In this document: piece by piece, positions 5,733 to 6,449 of the stretch
Layout: each line of letters begins with the position of its first letter
How positions within the stretch are numbered: position 1 is the first letter of the stretch
Source: an uncultured Alphaproteobacteria bacterium
GTDB taxonomy: Bacteria > Pseudomonadota > Alphaproteobacteria > Methylaequorales > Methylaequoraceae
DNA length: 64,000 nt
NCBI GenBank assembly: GCA_902526175.1
Contig: CABZJY010000001.1
Span: 130,682 to 194,681 of the forward strand
Direction: 5' to 3'
Notes under the pieces: model-generated
Seen by the model: only the letters and a program-made list of their open reading frames with translations
What the model was told of the DNA's origin: nothing
Databases searched by the model: none
Translations under genes and position numbers: made by a program

Positions 5733-5897
5733 ATGATTGATAAATTTAAAGAAAGTATTCATCAAGAGTTTGAAAGATTCATGAGAGATGAAATGGAAGA
5801 TAGTGAAAAAAAAAGATATATTAAATCTAAGAGATACAAAATTATGATTAAAGAAATATCCAAGATTTTGATAGAAAAAAGTTTAAAGAAAAACTAA
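5733..5897 (+). CDS. small charged hypothetical protein (54 aa)
   Basis: ATG..TAA translated by hand: MIDKFKESIHQEFERFMRDEMEDSEKKRYIKSKRYKIMIKEISKILIEKSLKKN; below the ORF-track cutoff. Confidence 0.4.
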   Translation: MIDKFKESIHQEFERFMRDEMEDSEKKRYIKSKRYKIMIKEISKILIEKSLKKN

Positions 5898-6248: not shown

Positions 6249-6276
6249 TAAAAAAAAGGGGATTTTTAATCCCCTT
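6249..6276 (-). terminator. intrinsic terminator of the minus-strand mini-unit
   Basis: Minus strand reads AAGGGGATT-AAA-AATCCCCTT followed by a T tract; the plus direction lacks a T tract. Confidence 0.8.
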
Positions 6277-6306
6277 ATCGTATTAATTTCGGTCAATTTA
6301 ACTTTT

Positions 6307-6384
6307 CTAATTAACTTTATTGTTGAGATTATCTGACAAATAGTTAATTAAGTTAAATTGAGTTTCATTTTTAATACTAGACAT
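6307..6384 (-). CDS. 25-aa micro-ORF MSSIKNETQFNLINYLSDNLNNKVN
   Basis: ATG preceded by TAAAGGAGGTGATC (perfect anti-SD complement, 7-nt spacing after GGAGG), stop TAG, followed by intrinsic terminator. Confidence 0.6.
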   Translation of the reverse strand: MSSIKNETQFNLINYLSDNLNNKVN

Positions 6385-6386
6385 CA

Positions 6387-6400
6387 GATCACCTCCTTTA
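6387..6400 (-). promoter_or_regulatory. extended Shine-Dalgarno identical to the full complement of the usual 16S rRNA 3' tail
   Basis: Plus strand GATCACCTCCTTTA; minus strand TAAAGGAGGTGATC. Confidence 0.75.
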
Positions 6401-6420
6401 AATTAGTTAATAATTTTTAT

Positions 6421-6449
6421 ATAGTACAAATTTTTAAAAAGTAATTCAA
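6421..6449 (-). promoter_or_regulatory. sigma70-like promoter for the mini-unit
   Basis: Minus strand TTGAAT - 17 bp - TACTAT, upstream of the extended SD; each hexamer matches consensus at 4 of 6 positions. Confidence 0.4.

Follow-up and report, generated by a model that had tools for sequence, protein, structure and literature searches.

CC2171 is the Rfam family RF01867, a “caulobacter sRNA” whose function is given there as unknown. The family appears in an Rfam update table, and RNA-seq of Mesorhizobium huakuii (PMC5596092) includes one CC2171 transcript, MH_s33. In the literature covered, no functional account was found by name or accession, nor any description of an ORF, a perfect Shine-Dalgarno (SD) sequence or a switch; an earlier account may exist, and as far as these papers show the family was previously known by name only. 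Two other described systems resemble the locus reported here in part. The AapA/IsoA system of Helicobacter pylori has metastable SD-sequestering hairpins that form during transcription, one of them inside the ORF, although its full-length mRNA stays locked until 3′ trimming opens it, and the toxin that it encodes is accompanied by an antisense antitoxin (PMC6733600). The dual-function attenuator RNA rnTrpL/peTrpL of Sinorhizobium (PMC10117765) is also small and alphaproteobacterial, and a very short ORF is translated from it; in contrast to the present locus, which lacks a conserved downstream gene, it is leaderless and derived from the trp attenuator.

The window, the whole 64,000-nt stretch of an uncultured alphaproteobacterium that was analysed, contains between positions 6249 and 6449 a locus for which the original prediction had proposed a self-contained minus-strand transcription unit. 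Every element named there was found in its place, and the unit is conserved in relatives. The features are listed below; the outer closing helix (6377-6371/6286-6280) and the alternative SD/anti-SD pairing (6395-6384/6336-6325) were absent from that prediction, as was the link to Rfam.

6421-6449, minus strand: putative promoter, TTGAAT (6449-6444), 17 bp, TACTAT (6426-6421), read from the sequence
6250-6414, minus strand: predicted transcript of ~165 nt, with its 5′ end placed from the -10 position and its 3′ end from the terminator
6387-6398, minus strand: AAGGAGGTGATC, complementary without mismatch to the 16S rRNA 3′ tail, from the sequence and the genome's own 16S 3′ end
6307-6384, minus strand: 25-codon ORF MSSIKNETQFNLINYLSDNLNNKVN and TAG, from the sequence, with length kept across 85 loci
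6371-6377, minus strand: 5′ strand of the P1 closing helix, GTATTAA (codons 3-5), from folding and class-wide covariation; present in the Rfam CC2171 model
6280-6286, minus strand: 3′ strand of the P1 closing helix, TTAATAC, adjoining the terminator, from folding and covariation
6342-6360, minus strand: 5′ arm of the inner long stem (CAATTTAACT, TAATTAACT), from sequence and folding; the inner helix covaries
6294-6316, minus strand: 3′ arm of the inner long stem (AGTTAATTA, AGTTAAATTG), from sequence, folding and covariation
6325-6336, minus strand: predicted anti-SD TCAGATAATCTC inside the ORF, whose partner GAGGTGATCTGA (6395-6384) lies over the SD and start codon, from pairing energy
6249-6276, minus strand: intrinsic terminator AAGGGGATT-AAA-AATCCCCTT and T tract, from a terminator scan; kept in all siblings

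The terminator forms a 9-pair hairpin (6276-6256) where shuffled sequence is expected to yield 0.1 terminators, and its reading as an intrinsic terminator followed by a T tract is thereby upheld. Taken by itself the promoter does not exceed chance expectation: a promoter scan returned 4 sites in the region against 4.4 expected. Its support is comparative, because most sibling loci in the window's family carry similar boxes upstream of the SD, namely a TTG-type -35 and a TAnnnT -10 that are 16-17 bp apart and lie ~20-37 bp from the SD. The TTGAAT-17bp-TACTAT element is thus present as described, and it is sibling layouts, not the chance scan, that agree with it. On the plus strand, a small ORF (MIDKFKESIHQEFERFMRDEMEDSEKKRYIKSKRYKIMIKEISKILIEKSLKKN, window positions 5733-5897) lies upstream of tRNA-Leu.

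The SD core (6398-6387) is contained in TAAAGGAGGTGATC, with the ATG at 6384 on the minus strand, and the claimed complementarity to the 16S tail was confirmed over 12 nt against the genome's own 16S 3′ end. Within the 1.33-Mb assembly the core occurs exactly twice, at this locus and antisense to the 16S 3′ end. The 22 family sequences read AAGGAGGTG[A/G]TCTGATGTCTAGTATT, with one position A or G and all others invariant. A 16S fragment or an assembly artefact was ruled out: nothing beyond the 12-14-nt tail complement is shared with 16S, and other loci preserve the unit in full. Most Caulobacter genes have no SD (PMC4117421), and a perfect SD on a tiny RNA is conspicuous given that majority. 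The window's exact SD-start string, AAGGAGGTGATCTGATGTC, also turns up outside the class, in four genomes that belong to other families in the phylum (L124-L127), where the gene that follows looks like 2-oxoacid:ferredoxin oxidoreductase beta, an ordinary gene with a near-perfect SD. These were rejected as further copies of the RNA, being ordinary start sites of that apparent gene.

With the matches from a DNA search of relatives, at least 22 window-family genomes carry the element (the window's own and 21 further). All 21 sibling loci have a near-invariant SD, a 24-25-codon ORF and a terminator that ends ~147 nt past the SD, so that the ORF, stem and SD, whose loss in near relatives had been named as grounds for abandoning the original prediction, are all conserved. 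Flanking genes differ in identity and strand, even inside the family, which argues for an independent unit and not a leader; no conserved co-directional downstream gene, the hallmark of an attenuator or leader, was found among the neighbours, which lie in either orientation. These varying neighbours exclude an attenuator or leader of a downstream gene, and comparison across the family indicates that the locus is a conserved, independent gene. The tail-to-tail arrangement with tRNA-Leu(TAA), to which attention had been drawn, is incidental, since none of the 21 siblings has a tRNA-Leu within the flanks examined, and a functional tie to it was dropped. One of the few local syntenies outside the window's family is in family f109, where three loci (L047, L051, L063) have a homologous gene, glutathione-peroxidase-like by eye, upstream of the element and close to it. 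The window's genome also carries an alpha-type tmRNA (207.6 bits), which marks it as alphaproteobacterial.

Direct comparison of the window with RF01867 gave no match at the gathering level (75 bits), and the Rfam model found no match in G000, G007, G008 and G014, or to the sibling L021 down to E 10. Across the class, 68 of 289 genomes and the Caulobacter control matched RF01867, and none in the window's family did. The Rfam comparison suggested with the original prediction succeeded through intermediates, using two further covariance models. R1, built from the 22 window-family sequences, matched relatives in other alphaproteobacterial families, several of which match RF01867 below its cut-off. 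Ten weak R1 matches (L049, L050, L054, L056-L062) look terminator-only and due to chance, and were left out of analyses. R2, built from intermediate relatives only, with the window's family and MSH-type members excluded, recovered the window copy (40.5 bits, E 9.1e-11), all siblings (E 1.8e-13 to 3.3e-18) and Rfam-type members (down to 1.9e-14), as well as two loci from another class. Members scored 31.7-64.9 bits under R2, compared with 15-21 for four ordinary genes having the same SD and start, the exception being L091 (24.7); SD-only controls reached an E no better than 9.6e-5. The exact SD-start pattern is skewed towards Alphaproteobacteria, as R2 matches are.

The likeness extends to layout. 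Thirty RF01867 loci share AAAGGAGGTGRTC, with a start codon two bases on and a tiny ORF, and the P1 helix and terminator architecture of RF01867 was found in the window copy by reference to the Rfam consensus structure, folds and covariation. CC2171 and the window's RNA have in common the perfect SD, the start of a tiny ORF, a P1 that links codons 3-5 with the base of the terminator, and the terminator itself, whereas the window's family is AT-rich, has GTATT/AATAC in place of CATTGTC/GACAATG and is missed by the Rfam model. This chain of intermediates indicates that the locus is a remote, divergent member of CC2171 and no new class, and its AT-rich family is a CC2171 variant that Rfam misses. 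One RF01867 locus (L080) has GTG and then AAA, instead of TCT. A different Rfam family, ar9 (RF02343), was considered as a possible parent; it matched a single relative weakly (26 bits, E 1.4, below the gathering score) and gave nothing across 115 class genomes, the control genomes also being without a match. Plasmid blastn with a relative's ORF returned short, weak matches only, and a pattern scan of genome contigs, too specific for the purpose, gave five stretches.

P1 connects the beginning of the ORF with the terminator's foot and starts a few nt past the AUG, and the SD and start codon lie in a weakly structured 5′ tail. Its strands are GTATTA/TAATAC in the window's family and GTGAT/ATCAC or CATTGTC/GACAATG elsewhere; class-wide, cognate strands pair at -7.5 kcal/mol as opposed to -4.0 for permuted ones (permutation p 1e-4). 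The two-part stem over the ORF (6294-6303 with 6351-6360; 6308-6316 with 6342-6350) was likewise at its predicted place and is conserved. Its cognate arms pair at -11.6 vs. -8.6 kcal/mol for permuted arms in the window's family, and at -28.0 vs. -20.8 kcal/mol outside it. Both helices, among them the stem for which a covariation check had been proposed, covary with a permutation p of ~1e-4 that is optimistic because the sequences tested are related. These tests used cognate/non-cognate pairing, since the 3′ arm is misaligned by MAFFT and RNAalifold, run on that alignment, recovered the SD/anti-SD helix but missed the long hairpin. Many relatives (for example L053, L084 and L103) contain in their apical part a GGAG-CARC-CTYC hairpin inside the ORF, holding SD-like and anti-SD-like halves.

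The 25-aa ORF ending in TAG was borne out by its relatives. ORF length is 24-25 codons in the window's family and 18-30 elsewhere (85 sequences), and 88% of non-family loci fall at 22-27 codons as compared with ~10% after shuffling. Its standard deviation is 0.3 codons inside the family and 2.2 outside it, vs. 10.8 and 56.8 in shuffles. TAA, TAG and TGA are all used as stops across loci, and no length constraint was found in the other two frames. Because length is constrained, stops are interchangeable and the other frames are free, there is good comparative evidence that the ORF is read by ribosomes.

This raises the main remaining rival, a highly translated micropeptide gene, in which the perfect SD would drive a 24-26-aa peptide acting as a protein and the structure would stabilise or time the mRNA. 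Conserved length and interchangeable stops suit it, as do an LSEQP motif common to 21 siblings and third codon positions that are the most variable within the family, a pattern compatible with some selection on the peptide there. However, peptides differ between families past the first residues, and no Pfam or NCBIfam match was found for representative peptides. The shared beginnings carry little weight, since the 5′ strand of P1 is codons 3-5 and the recurrent MSS or MSH starts are largely imposed by RNA structure. SEQPL coincides with the anti-SD, and the window copy has dropped it yet pairs with the SD at 11 of 12 positions. Of the micropeptide offered in the original prediction, the small ORF of conserved length stands and a peptide conserved between families does not; we regard this explanation as unlikely, though a serious contender.

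The SD/anti-SD pairing would provide an alternative fold. For the window copy its energy is -14.6 (z -3.6, p 0.01), and the alternative fold lies at -30.8 kcal/mol vs. -34.9 for the MFE. Over 85 loci the mean z is -1.68 (-2.4 in the family, -1.5 in others), with 42 of the 85 below p 0.05. Under synonymous shuffles the pairing is kept in 17 of 65 loci outside the family and is individually significant in 1 of 20 within it. When RNAs were folded after 3′ truncation, the unpaired probability of the SD fell from ~0.40 at 60 nt to 0.24 at the stop codon and rose to 0.45 at full length, the SD region being only some 45-50% unpaired in full-length folds. Re-opening between the stop codon and full length occurred in 71% of loci vs. 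21% of interior shuffles (p 2e-16, again optimistic for related sequences). The pattern holds in and outside the window's family. Thermodynamic folding of truncated RNAs serves here only as a proxy for co-transcriptional folding, and it predicts that SD exposure is open, closed and open again during synthesis.

The reading that we favour, at a probability of about one half, is that the locus specifies a divergent, AT-rich CC2171 RNA, an independent mRNA-like regulatory RNA that would serve as a ribosome-gated switch or sensor, with loading and translation selected over the peptide. On the nascent RNA the SD would be open over the first ~75 nt, and it would pair with the anti-SD as RNA polymerase passes the middle. 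Emergence of the P1 3′ strand and the terminator would then free the SD, and a ribosome could load on the finished RNA. We infer the translation and the function of the RNA, and also that what is selected would be the well-timed engagement of a ribosome, which loads at an excellent SD and translates ~24 codons, rather than the peptide. Because no downstream gene is attached, the RNA would presumably act in trans or through occupying 30S subunits. The other suggestion made originally, a structured RNA that pairs with 16S rRNA, fits better than a plain micropeptide in that the structure is conserved, while the binding itself is suggested by the perfect SD.

Action in trans could also take the form of a base-pairing sRNA, in which the weakly structured 5′ segment (AAAGGAGGUGAUC) or loops would pair with targets and the ORF would be secondary. 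CC2171 is entered in Rfam as an sRNA, and a compact, structured RNA with its own promoter and terminator is in keeping with this, but the conserved 5′ segment is an SD, whose match is to the 16S tail and not to the start regions of mRNAs, and the constraint on ORF length is left unexplained, which makes this account improbable. Still less probable is a ribosome decoy, whose perfect SD would sequester 30S subunits without productive translation: a perfect, nearly invariant complement of the 16S tail is what it calls for, and a helix beginning a few nt past the AUG would hinder accommodation, but translation is implied by the in-frame stops and the constraint on ORF length, and high RNA abundance would be required. 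Least credible is an AapA/Hok-like type I toxin mRNA with metastable SD-sequestering hairpins, because although an ORF-embedded SD/anti-SD hairpin is predicted on the nascent RNA, as in aapA3 (PMC6733600), the peptides are neither conserved nor uniformly hydrophobic (mostly non-hydrophobic, by inspection) and the full-length RNA tends to open the SD, not lock it. The SD-hiding hairpins of aapA3 (PMC6733600) are the nearest described behaviour to the favoured ribosome-gated switch, with the opposite end state: for the full-length RNA of the present locus re-opening is predicted, and nothing toxin-like was seen in it.

For CC2171 as a whole, these data give an orphan Rfam sRNA a near-universal perfect SD, a length-conserved but sequence-free ORF and a conserved SD-hiding alternative fold; they extend the family to small AT-rich genomes missed by Rfam, and they open its function to direct tests in Caulobacter or rhizobia. 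A bolder and more tentative proposal, which we put forward as possible, is that CC2171 represents an ancient, alphaproteobacteria-wide class in which selection would bear on whether and when an ORF of fixed length and free sequence is translated, the RNA being a ribosome-gated switch or sensor that has no gene attached and acts through ribosome engagement itself. Under strict filters 53 of the 210 class genomes searched have an R2 match (about a quarter), a lower bound that includes a few matches near the SD-only level. In another class of the phylum it gave three good matches among 143 genomes, one of them weakly matching CC2171 too. As judged by these searches, CC2171 is widespread in Alphaproteobacteria and sporadic in another class, where horizontal transfer or deeper ancestry may account for the copies. 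The CC2171-like RNAs of that other class (L128 and L129 in G423 and G652; L151 in G856) have 18- or 26-codon ORFs. Within the class, G042, G299 and G306 have two or three CC2171 matches per genome, and some alphaproteobacterial genomes may thus carry CC2171 paralogs.
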